DNA of 64,000 nucleotides from Cyanobium sp. FACHB-13342 (GTDB lineage Bacteria > Cyanobacteriota > Cyanobacteriia > PCC-6307 > Cyanobiaceae), in assembly GCF_014697415.1 (NCBI RefSeq), contig NZ_JACJRT010000008.1:372001-436000 (forward strand). The letters are read 5' to 3'. Both the position numbers and the translations under genes were made by a program. The notes under the pieces are model-generated. The model did not search any database. It worked only from the letters and a program-made list of their open reading frames with translations, and was not told where the DNA came from. Below are positions 2,837 to 9,020 of this stretch, one piece after another; within the stretch, counting starts at the first letter, position 1, and each line of letters opens with the position of its first letter.

Positions 2837-3292
2837 ATGGGCCTAGCCGCCGGAGACCGAGCACCGCTGATCGCCCTGGCTGATCAGAACGGCGTCGAAC
2901 GCCGCAGCGACCAACTGGCCGGCAAGGCCCTGGTGCTGTTCTTCTATCCCAAGGACGACACCCCCGGCTGCACAGCTGAAGCCTGCGCCTTCCGGGACAG
3001 CTATGCCGACCTGCAGGCCCTCGGGGCCGACGTGTGGGGGGTGAGCGGCGACGATGCCGCCAGCCACCAGCGCTTTGCCAGCCGCCACAACCTCCCCTAT
3101 CCCCTGTTGGTGGATCGGGGCAACCAGTTGCGCAAGGCCTTCGGTGTGCCCGGGGTGCTGGGACTGTTGCCGGGACGGGTCACCTACGTGATCGATGGCG
3201 ACGGGGTGATCCGACACGTGTTCAACAACCTGCTGGACGGTGCCGCCCACCGCAACGAAGCCCGTGCTGCCCTGCAACGGATGGGCCTCTGA
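2837..3292 (+). CDS. prxQ: Peroxiredoxin Q / bacterioferritin comigratory protein
   Basis: A 151-residue atypical 2-Cys peroxiredoxin of the PrxQ/Bcp class. It reduces hydrogen peroxide and alkyl hydroperoxides using thioredoxin-type electron donors. The thioredoxin fold carries the peroxidatic motif DDTPGCTAEACAFRD with peroxidatic Cys45 and resolving Cys50, the five-residue spacing that defines this subfamily. No signal peptide is seen, so it acts in the cytoplasm. The DUF1350 gene begins 2 bases after its stop, so the two are probably co-transcribed. Confidence 0.95.
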   Translation: MGLAAGDRAPLIALADQNGVERRSDQLAGKALVLFFYPKDDTPGCTAEACAFRDSYADLQALGADVWGVSGDDAASHQRFASRHNLPYPLLVDRGNQLRKAFGVPGVLGLLPGRVTYVIDGDGVIRHVFNNLLDGAAHRNEARAALQRMGL

Positions 3293-3294
3293 CC

Positions 3295-4032
3295 ATGGCG
3301 CAGTGGCGCCAGCGGGGCGACATCTGGCAGCTCGAGCCCAGGGGCGTCCCTCGCGGCACCGTCGAGTTCATCGGTGGCAGTTACCTGGCGGCCACCCCCC
3401 AGCTCAGTTACCGGCGCCTGCTGGAAGCCCTCGCCTCCCGCGGCTGGCGGATCCGGGCCTGGAGTTATGTGCCGGGCTTCGACCACCAGGACCAGGCCAA
3501 CACCGCCTGGCGCCGGTTTCGCCAACTGCGCGACAGCGATCCCGACGCCCCCCTGGTGCGCCTGGGTCACAGCCTGGGCTGCAAGCTTCACTTGCTGGCC
3601 CCAGACGGCGGCCGTGCCTGCGACGCCCTGGTGGCCCTGAGCTTCAACAACTTCTCCGCCGAGCGCTCCGTGCCCCTGCTGGCGGAACTGGGGCAGCAGT
3701 TCAATTTTCGCAGTGAGTTCAGTCCCTCGCCGGAGGACACCCTGCTCCAGGTGGCCCGCAGCTACCGGCAGCCGCACAACCTGCTGGTGCGGTTCCAGCG
3801 CGATCAGATCGACCAGAGCAAGCGACTCCTGGCGGTGCTGCAGGGCCGAGCCGGGGATGCCAGCCGGCTCACCGAGCTGCCCGGGGACCACCTGGCCCCA
3901 GCCAGCGCTGGTCTGCGCCAGAACCTCCTGGGCAACTGGGCGGACGATCCCAGCCGCCAGCGGGCCCTGGAGCGGATTGCCGACACCATCTGTAGCGGCC
4001 TACCGCCCTCGGCACGGGAGTCCAACCGGTAG
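3295..4032 (+). CDS. DUF1350 family alpha/beta-hydrolase-like protein
   Basis: A 245-residue protein starting at the ATG just after the prxQ stop. It matches the cyanobacterial/plastid DUF1350 family in length and in conserved segments such as VEFIGGSYLAATPQLSYRRL near the N terminus. A nucleophile-elbow-like GHSLG (about residues 88-92) and a late His in LPGDHLAP suggest a serine-hydrolase fold. The substrate is unknown. Two neighbouring genes encode a peroxidase and a signalling pair, which does not define its role. It ends in TAG. Confidence 0.85.
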   Translation: MAQWRQRGDIWQLEPRGVPRGTVEFIGGSYLAATPQLSYRRLLEALASRGWRIRAWSYVPGFDHQDQANTAWRRFRQLRDSDPDAPLVRLGHSLGCKLHLLAPDGGRACDALVALSFNNFSAERSVPLLAELGQQFNFRSEFSPSPEDTLLQVARSYRQPHNLLVRFQRDQIDQSKRLLAVLQGRAGDASRLTELPGDHLAPASAGLRQNLLGNWADDPSRQRALERIADTICSGLPPSARESNR

Positions 4033-4065: not shown

Positions 4066-4080
4066 GGTTCATAGTGAACC
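4066..4080. promoter_or_regulatory. 15-bp perfect dyad upstream of the FIST gene (candidate operator)
   Basis: GGTTCA-TAG-TGAACC has two perfect 6-base arms around a 3-base centre, in a 95-base intergenic region and 47 bases before the FIST start. The centre contains a CATAGT that could serve as a -10 hexamer. Such geometry fits a binding site for a dimeric regulator. No T-run follows, so it is not a terminator. Confidence 0.4.
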
Positions 4081-4127: not shown

Positions 4128-5291
4128 ATGGGCACTGAAAGCTGGGTCAAGGTTGGGGCCTCCACCCAAACCAGCACGACTGAAGCCCTGGACGAGGCCC
4201 TCGCTGGCCTGCAGACCCCGGCGGCCCCGAAGTTGGTGGTCGCCTTGGTGGCGCCCCACTTCGACCTACCCACCATTGCGGAAGGCCTGCATCAGGCCCT
4301 GCCCACCACCCAGGTGATTGGCTGCACCACCTCGGGGGAAATTGCACCGGATGGGGCCGTGGCCCAGGCGCTGGTGCTCTGGGCCCTGGGCGGGGACGCC
4401 ATCAACGTCACCACCGGATCGGGCCAGGGGGATGATCTCGGTCTACGCCGGGCGGCCACCGAAGCCGCCCATTGCCTGGATCAACTCGATCAGCGGGCCA
4501 ACACCGTGCTGATGATGTTGTCCGATGGTCTTTGCGGGGATCAGATGGAAGTGGTGCGGGGCGCCTACGACGTGGCCGCCATTGATGTTCCCTTGGTGGG
4601 AGGCTGTGCCGGCGACTACCTGGCGATGCGCCGCACGCGCCAGATCCACGGGCGCCGGGTGATGAGCCAGTCGGTGGTTGCCGCTGCCATCAGCTCTAAC
4701 CGCCCGCTGGGGATCGGGGTCAGCCACGGATGGACTCCGGTCAGTGAACCGATGCTGGTGACCGGCAGCAAGGGCAACCTGCTGTCCTCGCTGGAGGACA
4801 AGCCCGCTCTCGACGTGTATCTGAACTTCTTCAATCCCCCTGAGGCCGTCCGAACGGATCAGGCTGCTTTTGCCACATTCGCTGCCACCCATCCGATCGG
4901 AATCCGCCGTCGCGACAAAATCGAAATGCGCCACATCACGGGTTTCAATCCTCAGACCCGCGAGCTGATCACGGTGGCGGAAGTGCCCCAGGGAGCTCTG
5001 GCCTTTCTGACCGAAGGGGATTTCAGCTCCGTGCTGGACGCGGCGGCCCAGTCCTGTCAATCCGCTTTGGCCGGCCTCAACGGCGAGGAGCCGGTAGGCC
5101 TGTTCCTGTTTGATTGTGTCTCGAGGCGTGCGGTGTTCACCGAAGATCGGGTGCACGAGGAAACGGATCTGATCAGCAGCCATTGCGGCCAGGTGCCAAT
5201 GGCGGGGTTTTACACCTATGGCGAGATCTGCAGAACCAAAGGGGCAGGCGGCTTCCACAACCAGACCTTGGTGACCCTGGCGATCGGCTGA
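4128..5291 (+). CDS. FIST domain sensory protein
   Basis: A 387-residue soluble protein with an N-terminal FIST domain (about residues 20-215) and a FIST_C domain (about 220-370, ending in GFYTYGEICRTKGAGGFHNQ, typical of the family). FIST domains are thought to bind small ligands, possibly amino acids, and to pass the signal to partner output domains. The ATG at 4128 is chosen because AGGAG lies 6 bases upstream; a GTG at 4074 inside the dyad is less likely. The stop overlaps the ATG of the next gene by one base (TGATG), so the sensor and the GGDEF-EAL protein are made together. No membrane segment is seen. Confidence 0.9.
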   Translation: MGTESWVKVGASTQTSTTEALDEALAGLQTPAAPKLVVALVAPHFDLPTIAEGLHQALPTTQVIGCTTSGEIAPDGAVAQALVLWALGGDAINVTTGSGQGDDLGLRRAATEAAHCLDQLDQRANTVLMMLSDGLCGDQMEVVRGAYDVAAIDVPLVGGCAGDYLAMRRTRQIHGRRVMSQSVVAAAISSNRPLGIGVSHGWTPVSEPMLVTGSKGNLLSSLEDKPALDVYLNFFNPPEAVRTDQAAFATFAATHPIGIRRRDKIEMRHITGFNPQTRELITVAEVPQGALAFLTEGDFSSVLDAAAQSCQSALAGLNGEEPVGLFLFDCVSRRAVFTEDRVHEETDLISSHCGQVPMAGFYTYGEICRTKGAGGFHNQTLVTLAIG

Positions 5292-7027
5292 TGGAGCCCT
5301 CCTGGTCGCTGCACATGCTTTCGGAGATCCTCTCGGCGTTTTCGACGGAGGATCCTGACAACCTCCGCAATGTGCTGAACCGGGTGGCGGAATCGGTGGA
5401 TGCCGAAGTGGCCGCCATTTTCTGTGCCGGACAGATTGACTGGTGCATCGGGCTGAGCGAAGCCGACCAGAAACAACTGGTTCAGCAGGCCGAGCAGCAA
5501 CCCACCGACATCCCCATCCGCTCTGGAGCGCTGCACGCCTGCTGGGCTCCCATGGGGAACCGCGACATGCTCTTTGTCGGCCGCCTGGGCGAACGCTTCG
5601 ACCTGGAGGAACGGGCCCTGCTGCGGGCCATGGCCCGCAGCATCGAGCTCAGCATCCAGATGCTGCGGGCCGTGTCGTCGGAACGCCAGGCCCGAAAGGA
5701 TGCCTACCAGCAGGCCACCCATGACGCCCTGACGGGCCTGCCCAACCGCCGGATGGTGCTGGATCGCCTCAGATCAGCCATTGACCATCCGGTCGGCGAC
5801 GACTCCCTAGTGACCGCTGTCCTGTTCATCGACATCGATCGCTTCAAGTGGATCAACGATGCCCATGGCCATGCCGCCGGAGACCAACTGCTGATCCATG
5901 TCAGCCGCATCCTCAAGGAGGCAGTTCGGCATGGTGATCTGGTGGGACGGCTGTCGGGCGATGAGTTCATCGTGATCACCCGCACCAGCGACCGCAACGC
6001 GGCCAGCGAACTGGCCAGAAGGATCATTGCCAGGATTCGCCAGCCCCTGAAGGTGGCGGGGTCCGAACTCAGCCACACCGTGTCGATTGGGATCAGCTTT
6101 GCCCACCCCGGCGACAATCCCTCCTCCCTCCTGGAAAACGCCGACATGGCGATGTACCGCGCCAAGGCGCTGGGTCGGGGGCGGTACGCGAGCTTCCACT
6201 CCTCAATGCGCCTGCAGGCGCAGCAACGCCTTTCCCTGGAGGAAGCCCTCGGCCATGCGGTGGGCAATGGCGAAATCACCACCCATCTCCAGCCCCTCTT
6301 TCGCCTGTCCGACAACACCCTCTCCGGCTTTGAGGCGCTGGTGCGCTGGCAGCATCCCCAGCTGGGGCTGCTGCTTCCAGGGGCCTTTCTGGAACAGGCC
6401 GAAGACAGCGGTCTGATTCAAGACATCGACATGACCGTTTTTGAGGCCGCCTGCTCCGCCATCGCCCAATGGCAGCACATTGCCGGCCTGGAGCATCTGC
6501 GTCTCTCCTCCAACCTGTCGGCGCGCAGCCTTGCCGATCCGCGGGTCAAAGAGCGGATCAAAGTGATTCTAGAAACCACGGGCATCCAACCCAGCAATGT
6601 CTACCTGGAGATCACCGAAACCACCTTGGTGGAAGATATTGATTCCACAGTAAGCACGATCAATGCACTGCGTGATTTGAATGTTCGCCTGGCGATCGAT
6701 GATTTTGGCACCGGATATTCATCCCTCCTCTATCTCAAACGCTTCCCAGTCGGCGTGCTGAAAATCGACCGCTCCTTCGTGAATGGACTGGGCATGAACC
6801 CAGAAGATGAAGTGATCGCCACCACGATCCTCTCCCTCGCCCGAGCCCTTGAGCTCGAGGTGGTGGCCGAAGGGGTGGAGAACCAGATGCAGCTGGAGCG
6901 GATCCGCGAACTGGGAAGCGATTACGGCCAGGGCTATCTGTTTGGAGAACCCATTTCCATCGGCGATACGGAGCGCAGCTTCATCGCTCCCCGGCGACCC
7001 ACCGCCGCCGTTCTCACCGCACCCTGA
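5291..7027 (+). CDS. GAF-like/GGDEF/EAL dual c-di-GMP enzyme
   Basis: A 578-residue cytoplasmic protein. Residues about 5-125 look like a GAF domain, followed by a diguanylate cyclase domain with signature SGDEF (222-226, Ser for the first Gly, a tolerated variant) and an RxxD inhibitory site (RHGD, 213-216) exactly five residues before it. The EAL phosphodiesterase domain keeps EAL (348-350), ITE (441-443), DDFGTGYSS (from 470), Lys491 in LKIDR, AEGVE (526-530) and Gln547, so both activities look possible. It is coupled to the upstream FIST sensor by a 1-base overlap, which suggests that FIST ligand binding tunes c-di-GMP level. It ends 1 base before the convergent acs stop. Confidence 0.95.
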   Translation: MEPSWSLHMLSEILSAFSTEDPDNLRNVLNRVAESVDAEVAAIFCAGQIDWCIGLSEADQKQLVQQAEQQPTDIPIRSGALHACWAPMGNRDMLFVGRLGERFDLEERALLRAMARSIELSIQMLRAVSSERQARKDAYQQATHDALTGLPNRRMVLDRLRSAIDHPVGDDSLVTAVLFIDIDRFKWINDAHGHAAGDQLLIHVSRILKEAVRHGDLVGRLSGDEFIVITRTSDRNAASELARRIIARIRQPLKVAGSELSHTVSIGISFAHPGDNPSSLLENADMAMYRAKALGRGRYASFHSSMRLQAQQRLSLEEALGHAVGNGEITTHLQPLFRLSDNTLSGFEALVRWQHPQLGLLLPGAFLEQAEDSGLIQDIDMTVFEAACSAIAQWQHIAGLEHLRLSSNLSARSLADPRVKERIKVILETTGIQPSNVYLEITETTLVEDIDSTVSTINALRDLNVRLAIDDFGTGYSSLLYLKRFPVGVLKIDRSFVNGLGMNPEDEVIATTILSLARALELEVVAEGVENQMQLERIRELGSDYGQGYLFGEPISIGDTERSFIAPRRPTAAVLTAP

Positions 7028-7028
7028 C

Positions 7029-9020
7029 CTAAACCCTCAGGGCATCCAGCACGGAGCGGTCCTCGAGGGTGGAGGTGTCGCCACTCACCTCCTGGCCATC
7101 GGCCAGGGCCCGCAAAATCCGCCGCATGATCTTGCCACTGCGGGTCTTGGGCAGGGCATCGGTGAAGCGGATCTCATCGGGTTTGGCGATCGGGCCGATC
7201 TCCTTGGCCACATGGCTGCGCAGCTCGGCGATCAGGGCGTCATCGCCAAGGCGCCCGGCCTCCAGGGTCACAAAGGCCACGATCCCCTCCCCTTTGAGGT
7301 CGTCGGGCCGGCCCACCACCGCGGCTTCGGCCACGGTGGGGTGACTCACCAGCGCACTCTCGATTTCCATCGTGCCCAGGCGATGGCCGCTGACGTTGAT
7401 CACGTCATCCACCCGGCCCATCACCCAGAAGTAGCCGTCGGCATCGCGGCGGGCTCCATCGCCTGCAAAGTAGAGATGGCTGCCGTCAGCCGGGCGAATC
7501 TCCTCCCAGTAGCTCTTGCGGAACCGCTCCGGATCGCCGTGCACGGTGCGCATCATCCCGGGCCAAGGGCGGCGCACCGCCAGGTATCCACCCGAGTCTG
7601 CGGGTTGGGAGATGCCCTCCAGGTCGACCACGTCGGCTGCGATCCCCGGCAGGGGCAGGGTGCAGGATCCGGGCTTGGTGGGCGTGGCTCCCGGCAGGGG
7701 GCTGATCATCACCCCACCCGTTTCCGTCTGCCACCAGGTGTCGATCACCGGGCAGCGATCGCCGCCGATCACATCCCGGTACCACATCCAGGCCTCCGGA
7801 TTGATCGGCTCGCCCACGGTGCCGAGGATGCGCAGGGAGCCCATGTCGTACTGATCCGGCACCGCGCGGCCGCTCTTCATGAAGGCCCGGATCGCCGTGG
7901 GGGCCGTGTAGAAGATGGTGCAGCGGTGCTTCTGGATCACCTCCCAGAAGGCGCCGGGCTTGCTGGGGCGAGGGGCCCCCTCGTACATCACCGTGGTGGC
8001 GCCGTTGGAGAGCGGGCCGTACACGATGTAGCTGTGGCCCGTGATCCAGCCCACGTCGGCGGTGCACCAGTGAACGTCGTCTTCACGGAGATCGAAGATC
8101 CACTGGAAAGTGAGGTGGGCCCAGAGGTTGTAGCCGGCGGTGGTATGCACCACCCCCTTGGGCTTGCCGGTGGAGCCCGAGGTGTAGAGCACGAACAGGC
8201 GGTCCTCGCTGGCCATCGGTTCGGCCGCGCATGCAGCGCTCTGGTTCTCCACCAGCTCATGCCACCAGTGGTCGCGGCCGGCCGTCATGGCGCAGTCGCC
8301 GCCGGCTCCAGCCAGCCGCCGTACCACCAGCACATGCTCCACGGAGGGGGCCCCGCCACTGCTGCCCAGCGCCTCATCCACGGCGGGTTTCAAGGGCACC
8401 GGCTTGTCCTTGCGGAAGCCGCCATCGGCGGTGATCACCGCCTTGGCCTGGCCATCGATCAGCCGATCGCGCAGGGCATCGGCCGAGAAGCCGCCGAAGA
8501 CCACCGAGTGGGGGGCGCCGATGCGGGCACAGGCCAGCATGGCGATGGCGGCTTCGGGAACCATCGGCATGTAGAGGGCCACGAGGTCGCCCTTGCCAAT
8601 GCCGAGGACCTTGAGGGCATTGGCGGCCCTGCACACCTCCGCGTGCAGCTGGCGATAGGTGAAGCGGCGCGTATCGCCGGGTTCCCCTTCCCAAATGAGG
8701 GCCGTCTTCTCCGCACGCGGCCCATCCAGGTGGCGATCGAGGCAGTTGAAGCTGAGGTTGGTGGTGCCGCCCTCAAACCAGCGGGCAAAGGGTGGGTTGC
8801 TCCAATCGAGCACGGTGTGAAAGGGCTCGAACCAGTGGAGCTCACGGCGGGCCAGATCCCCCCAGAAGCCATCCGGATCGGCCTCGGCCTTGGCGCAGAG
8901 CTCCCGGTAAGCCTCCAGGGAGCCGATGCGGGCGCCAGCAGAGAGCTCAGCCGGAGGAGCAAACAACCGACCTTCCTGTAGCCCCGATTCGATCGTCACG
9001 CCCGAGGGGACATCAGACAT
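7029..9020 (-). CDS. acs: Acetyl-CoA synthetase (AMP-forming)
   Basis: A 663-residue enzyme that converts acetate, ATP and CoA to acetyl-CoA through acetyl-AMP. Visible motifs are [12 protein letters not shown] (P-loop), WWQTETGG (adenylate binding) and the C-terminal [11 protein letters not shown] with the catalytic lysine that is acetylated in bacterial Acs. Full length matches the family (about 650). The start at [14 protein letters not shown] is preferred because Acs proteins usually begin shortly before the conserved ES..QEGRLF segment; an ATG at 9050 would add 10 residues. It runs convergent to the GGDEF-EAL gene and divergent from the HAD phosphatase. Confidence 0.95.

Follow-up and report, generated by a model that had tools for sequence, protein, structure and literature searches.

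A FIST sensor gene overlapping a GGDEF-EAL enzyme gene in Cyanobium sp., and the conserved N-terminal domain that accompanies FIST across phyla

FIST proteins tied to c-di-GMP signalling are described, in the available portions of PMC8846402 and PMC11237717, as responding to NO or heme. In Legionella pneumophila, NosP-NahK-NarR is composed of a FIST sensor, a kinase and a DGC-PDE response regulator (PMC8846402 and PMC11237717, in extract), and Vibrio cholerae CdpA is a heme-inhibited fusion of FIST-FIST_C to EAL (PMC8846402, in extract). Signalling from FIST to c-di-GMP is already known, via a kinase (NosP) and within one chain (CdpA), and two-gene, kinase-free pairs of a sensor and a c-di-GMP enzyme are already known for H-NOX, which is found with a DGC or DGC-PDE in Shewanella woodyi, Legionella (Hnox1-Lpg1057) and Dinoroseobacter (PMC8846402, in extract). 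In Burkholderia pseudomallei, the FIST gene nosP is directly followed by that of its signalling partner NosK (excerpts of PMC12570481). The step from FIST to output is described as little known in the accessible part of PMC8846402.

The locus analysed here lies in a window of 64,000 nucleotides, the whole stretch of Cyanobium DNA under study, and consists of a FIST gene and an overlapping gene for a GGDEF-EAL enzyme. As in NosP-NahK-NarR, the FIST-FIST_C protein stands alone and the encoded output ends in c-di-GMP synthesis and breakdown; unlike in that system, there is neither kinase nor receiver domain, the enzyme adjoins FIST and starts with a domain termed NTER, and the score of the FIST protein falls well short of the cut-off for the NosP family. 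As in CdpA, FIST would act on a c-di-GMP enzyme with no kinase between them; the locus differs from this single polypeptide in having two proteins, NTER, and GGDEF besides EAL. The two-gene, kinase-free layout is that of the H-NOX pairs and the direct gene order that of NosP-NosK, the sensor, however, being FIST instead of H-NOX. The H-NOX fold is unrelated to FIST. Searches of the open-access literature, whose coverage does not extend to the main NosP papers, turned up neither a description of NTER nor one of a cyanobacterial FIST-GGDEF-EAL pair.

Anatomy of the gene pair and its setting

The following features, all on the + strand, were delineated in the window:

2837-3292, +, peroxiredoxin gene, upstream of FIST and on the strand of the pair
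3295-4032, +, gene for a DUF1350 protein, 95 bases upstream of FIST and on the strand of the pair
4128-5291, +, FIST sensor gene, ATG start, 387 aa, solo FIST-FIST_C (ORF and Pfam)
4230-4802, +, FIST N domain, residues 35-225 (Pfam PF08495, 154.9 bits)
4806-5234, +, FIST_C domain, residues 227-369 (Pfam PF10442, 95.9 bits)
5289-5293, +, TGATG, FIST stop and enzyme start, overlapping by one base
5291-7027, +, bifunctional GGDEF-EAL protein, ATG start, 578 aa (ORF and Pfam)
5291-5704, +, NTER, N-terminal partner domain, residues 1-138, without Pfam model, suggested to receive the signal from FIST
5603-5719, +, long predicted helix from NTER to GGDEF, residues 105-143 (AlphaFold model)
5714-6181, +, GGDEF domain, residues 142-297 (Pfam PF00990, E 1.9e-46)
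5927-5938, +, I-site RHGD, residues 213-216 (R in 56/62, D in 60/62 enzymes)
5954-5968, +, A-site SGDEF, residues 222-226 (GDEF in 62/62 enzymes, first residue S, A or G)
6242-6952, +, EAL domain, residues 318-554 (Pfam PF00563, E 5.6e-66)

The one-base overlap stated in the first-pass annotation is exact, the last base of the FIST stop codon TGA being the A of the enzyme's ATG. Pfam covers residues 35-369 of the FIST protein with E values of 3e-45 (FIST) and 2.7e-27 (FIST_C), both curated cut-offs being exceeded (154.9 vs 23.2 bits and 95.9 vs 28.5 bits). A sequence search of the PDB with the FIST protein gave no match, and neither protein of the pair matched PHROGs. The protein is 94 % identical to the FIST of Cyanobium sp. 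T1B-Tous, in agreement with the earlier assignment to a picocyanobacterium.

The active sites of the enzyme are complete, as had been noted before. RHGD precedes SGDEF by five residues, which is the usual RxxD spacing, and the EAL domain possesses E348, N408, E440, D470, D471, K491, E527, E530 and Q547, nine positions which we take to be catalytic. In an alignment of 62 of 64 enzymes (L073 and L095 were omitted as short), all 62 retain GDEF together with the first five of the EAL positions, and 61 retain the remaining ones, one gap extending over the last EAL sites. The EAL fold matches the PDE domains of PdeA, MorA and BifA (Z ~33). The enzyme model also aligns with Escherichia coli DosP over residues ~3-569, including the stretch ahead of GGDEF, and the NCBIfam DosP family matches residues 29-557; since the global rmsd amounts to 16-18, the domains alone match and not their arrangement. 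DosP carries its sensor as a built-in PAS heme domain, unlike the window pair with its separate FIST protein. The genome (2.37 Mb, 99.4 % complete) harbours 16 GGDEF and 9 EAL matches in total, which rules out a minimal c-di-GMP network; no MshEN-type c-di-GMP receptor was matched in it.

NTER (residues 1-138) matched no Pfam family at E values up to 10, GAF included, and a PDB sequence search with it yielded nothing meaningful (best E 0.87). In the AlphaFold model of the enzyme (mean pLDDT 85), its elements follow the order helix-helix-strand-strand-helix-three strands-long helix, which resembles a GAF domain minus its variable part. A profile comparison of NTER with genuine GAF domains of this protein family gave a weak match (E 0.0028, probability 11 %), and GAF was weakly matched in 4 of 39 NTER relatives (best 3.5e-4). 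A GAF-like fold is thus weakly supported; from the earlier label "GAF" the element order of the model is retained, and the assignment to the Pfam family is not.

The pair had also been said to have no other partner. The peroxiredoxin and DUF1350 genes, however, lie upstream on the same strand, the latter at a distance of 95 bases, and could share a transcript with FIST and the enzyme. Five of ten relatives keep the pair without the upstream genes in the stretch fetched, and of the neighbours in the window the peroxiredoxin and acetyl-CoA synthetase genes are not constant among relatives; we infer that the pair has no further partners. Scans for promoters and terminators gave nothing exceeding shuffled sequences. 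A palindrome ahead of the FIST start codon (GGTTCATAGTGAACC, 4066-4080) was dropped as it is not kept in relatives; its pattern occurs five times in the window (0.97 in shuffles), two of the five being the same site read on both strands.

Conservation of the FIST-NTER pairing

FIST was matched in 17 of 201 genomes of the window's family, its own genome counted. The surroundings were read for ten full-length copies (47-81 % identity) from nine other genomes; a 59-residue fragment (G189:C66, 66 % identity) and eight matches at 22-28 % identity were omitted. Non-adjacency in relatives had been proposed as the sign of an accidental unit. This test was run, and the enzyme (46-80 % identity) directly follows FIST in 10/10, overlapping by one base in six and by four bases in four. 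The upstream genes for exonuclease, peroxiredoxin (PrxQ) and DUF1350 are present in five of the ten and were not found in the fetched stretch of the other five. The genomic surroundings of the pair in the family are therefore of two or more kinds, and the pair holds together when they change. Cyanobium usitatum (L044) likewise carries the pair.

Beyond the family, one genome per species was scanned for FIST relatives and the best 80 of 257 loci were kept, comprising Cyanobium and its kin, many Actinomycetota and some Dormibacterota and Chloroflexota (41-53 % identity). Among these best 80 of 257, NTER lies directly downstream of FIST in 76, as found with a profile built from the same 80 loci; the window NTER as lone tblastn query recovered it in 56/80. 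Included in the 76 is L050, where NTER is read in two frames and is thus probably frameshifted. At two of the four unmatched loci (L077, L115) the first NTER residues are visible before the contig ends, and at the other two (L060, L075) NTER was not found.

The output behind NTER varies. In the same best 80 of 257 loci, GGDEF follows in 63, with EAL matched too in 62 of these; as far as spacing and Pfam show, NTER runs straight into GGDEF in 33/80 and is separated from it by an insert of ~450-580 bases in 30/80, the insert being a GAF domain in both loci scanned (L068, L078). In a further 12/80, NTER is joined to a histidine kinase, of the GAF-HisKA type (L083, L085, L091), the GAF-HisKA_3 type (L094, L105, L106, L108, L109, L112) or the PAS type (L116, together with L076 and L090, which bear a receiver); one NTER locus is cut off. 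An NTER-kinase is present in Kribbella. On a quick FIST tree, at least four changes between kinase and GGDEF output are required, and five on a smaller, likewise quick tree from which seven long rows were removed. If the same kind of FIST-NTER pair drives c-di-GMP enzymes as well as kinases, swaps between these outputs would be a natural test of modularity. FIST and NTER distances correlate over 49 non-cyanobacterial loci (r 0.73; L050 and L107 left out); over 32 loci, r is 0.75 for FIST-NTER vs 0.62 for FIST-GGDEF-EAL, and since the latter distances correlate too, the FIST-NTER correlation mostly reflects shared descent. At the Synechococcaceae-type loci L052-L058, a second GGDEF-EAL gene is located convergently just downstream of the pair, with an EAL match on the opposite strand in 7/7.

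The specificity of the pairing was assessed in 36 whole genomes drawn from the same best 80 of 257 loci. For 38 of 40 strong NTERs (>=95 bits), a same-strand FIST N domain is located 495-538 bases upstream. Fifty-nine FIST matches were detected, 38 of the 41 above 124 bits being paired with NTER and none of the 18 that make up a second FIST class (123 bits or less), which serves as an internal control within the same genomes; one genome (G235) possesses four pairs. As FIST was the basis for selecting both the 80 loci and the 36 genomes, their pairing rates are conditional on it. A scan starting from NTER, in which the best ten candidates in each of 396 Actinomycetota genomes were scored, revealed FIST directly upstream of 11/15 NTER matches at >=70 bits and of 0/18 weaker ones (<70 bits; 18 of 19 examined, G813:C52 left out); without the four genomes shared with the 36-genome set, the former count is 7/10, again from the best ten candidates per genome.

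Separate occurrences exist on both sides. NTER without FIST was found at G203:C146, G214:C2, G628, G761 and G681:C136, at least two of these five proteins being kinases or kinase-sized, and FISTs of the paired class that lack NTER at G203:C111, G204:C15 and G235:C156. A cyanobacterium from Lake Pavin (G203; L122, L123) is a natural case of a split pair, its lone FIST and lone NTER-GGDEF-EAL protein being encoded on different contigs.

Distribution among cyanobacteria and other FIST partners

Among 292 cyanobacterial genomes, FIST occurs in 119 and NTER in only three, all of the window's own family. On the quick FIST tree, the Cyanobium-type clade is placed among freshwater Actinomycetota. A single clade of all cyanobacterial FISTs is not rejected by the AU test (p 0.61), the tree constrained in this way even having the higher likelihood; a horizontal origin of the cyanobacterial pair was therefore dropped, and neither transfer nor its direction is claimed. 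Two FISTs inside the cyanobacterial clade (L055, L064) come from records titled Bifidobacterium breve isolate HRS-ES1-bin-439, a MAG that is probably mislabelled or contaminated.

In other cyanobacteria, FIST partners of 326-372 aa are HATPase_c kinases in 5/5 scanned, as is one of 506 aa. These kinases start with a coiled coil, in contrast to the NTER of the window enzyme. At five loci of larger cyanobacteria (L129, L132, L138, L141, L148), only a few bases separate FIST from a downstream coiled-coil histidine kinase of 347-372 aa, apparently another family of FIST partners. Further partners are a PAS hybrid kinase (L135) and a chemoreceptor-type protein (L142).

The window's own family contains additional FIST lineages. 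A distant one (22-25 % identity; L033, L034, L036, L037) is located near a GGDEF-EAL protein, at L033 a PAS-GGDEF-EAL protein of ~780 aa from another lineage, and is a second, separate pairing of FIST with c-di-GMP. The genome of the window itself possesses a second FIST gene (L041; contig C12, ~6290-7500, minus strand, 96 bits) without NTER partner. In Cyanobiaceae relatives (L016, L018, L038-L040, L144), FIST of this type is followed by the overlapping start of a tRNA methyltransferase-like gene, presumably trmB.

Signal transfer, ligand and significance

Judged from gene arrangement and conservation, the two genes form a real sensor/effector unit; the earlier view of a two-gene unit that is not accidental is borne out by their adjacency in relatives and by the NTER partner in 76 of the best 80 of 257 loci. 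We propose, at a probability of about 0.7, that they encode a dedicated soluble pair in which a ligand-binding FIST docks on NTER and shifts the enzyme between making and degrading c-di-GMP, with no kinase involved. The overlapping stop and start codons would let FIST be made in step with the enzyme, FIST would bind a small ligand and dock on NTER of the GGDEF-EAL homodimer, and docking or ligand exchange would be relayed through the long linker helix to alter the balance of the two activities without phosphorylation. Physical docking is an inferred part of this scheme. Control of the enzyme by FIST via NTER is the most likely arrangement, and NTER is probably the part receiving the signal; the main argument is that FIST and NTER stay constant while the output is exchanged, to which the 0/18 pairing of the second FIST class adds.

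That same evidence bears on the simpler idea that FIST and enzyme merely have transcript and ancestry in common, do not touch, and that NTER answers to a separate ligand or partner. Such a history would agree with the NTER enzymes and kinases that lack FIST, with the FISTs that lack NTER, and with the correlated distances, which co-inheritance would produce. It sits poorly with the swapping of the partner between GGDEF-EAL and three kinds of kinase beside a constant FIST and NTER, and with a FIST class that is never paired in the same genomes, and is regarded as unlikely. A different reservation concerns the enzyme, in which EAL alone (or GGDEF alone) may work in practice and the other domain act as regulator, as is common among GGDEF-EAL proteins. 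Among named NCBIfam families, the enzyme is matched best by phosphodiesterases (DibA, Tlr1612), every one of these matches falling below cut-off, which points in this direction; retention of the residues of both sites in 62/62 enzymes, one gap aside, points away from it, and one-way function appears a serious prospect that nevertheless falls short of even odds.

Within the preferred reading of a FIST-NTER unit, the choice of ligand is separate. The signal had been called a nutrient and the circuit undescribed. The second term is too strong given the known signalling from FIST to c-di-GMP, for which reason we also guess a heme- or NO-type signal to be no less likely than a nutrient. As to the first term, the described c-di-GMP FISTs answer NO or heme (PMC8846402 and PMC11237717, as far as available), among them Legionella NosP (NO) and V. 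cholerae CdpA (heme; PMC8846402, same limit), and nothing in the present data points to amino acids. A unit of the NosP type, its heme-bound FIST sensing NO or heme and setting c-di-GMP directly, would accord with NosP (NF041558) as the sole NCBIfam family matching the protein, over its full length (residues 11-387, 104.5 bits), and with the gene partners given for that family (kinases, c-di-GMP enzymes or chemoreceptors), the partner here being a GGDEF-EAL enzyme with a one-base overlap. Two histidines, H200 and H377, show no variation in an alignment of 81/81 NTER-type FISTs, H377 being present also in 19/20 other cyanobacterial FISTs. Eight further FIST positions (R107, Q139, R144, Y147, C160, S190, R369 and Q379) are conserved solely in FISTs that go with NTER. 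The score, however, is far under the equivalog cut-off of 450 bits, the two histidines are candidate heme ligands only, and H200 recurs in just 7/20 of the other cyanobacterial FISTs, which leaves this type of unit a tentative choice at roughly one in three, slightly ahead of each single alternative. If it followed Legionella NosP, ligand binding may lower c-di-GMP, which is a guess by analogy.

FIST was reportedly first proposed as a binder of small ligands, e.g. amino acids, by Borziak and Zhulin in 2007. A FIST that binds an amino acid or other metabolite and reports it via c-di-GMP would be compatible with the predicted FIST structure, a poor model (pLDDT 65) that comes closest to the FIST region of FBXO22 from human (Z 13.0) and also resembles cyclic amide hydrolases (Z ~10), folds with ligand-sized clefts. 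Against it stand the missing conserved metabolic neighbour, the genes beside the pair here being absent from it in 5/10 relatives, and a literature search that returned no nutrient ligand of a FIST protein; a nutrient is considered improbable. What then remains, somewhat under half, falls to a ligand of some other kind.

On a broader scale, the chances appear even that NTER represents a docking domain not described before, probably a GAF reduced in size, within a cross-phylum FIST plug combining one soluble sensor, a receiver that stays the same and outputs that can be exchanged (c-di-GMP enzyme, HisKA/HisKA_3 kinase or PAS hybrid kinase), of which the freshwater picocyanobacterial form, with NTER joined straight to GGDEF-EAL, would be the shortest. 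If the proposed mechanism is right, the pair would offer a defined, small and testable interface between a FIST protein and an enzyme. The c-di-GMP inputs named in reviews are, in the parts available of PMC4284465 and PMC10117731, mainly light, and for picocyanobacteria the FIST-NTER unit would then add a non-light input to c-di-GMP.
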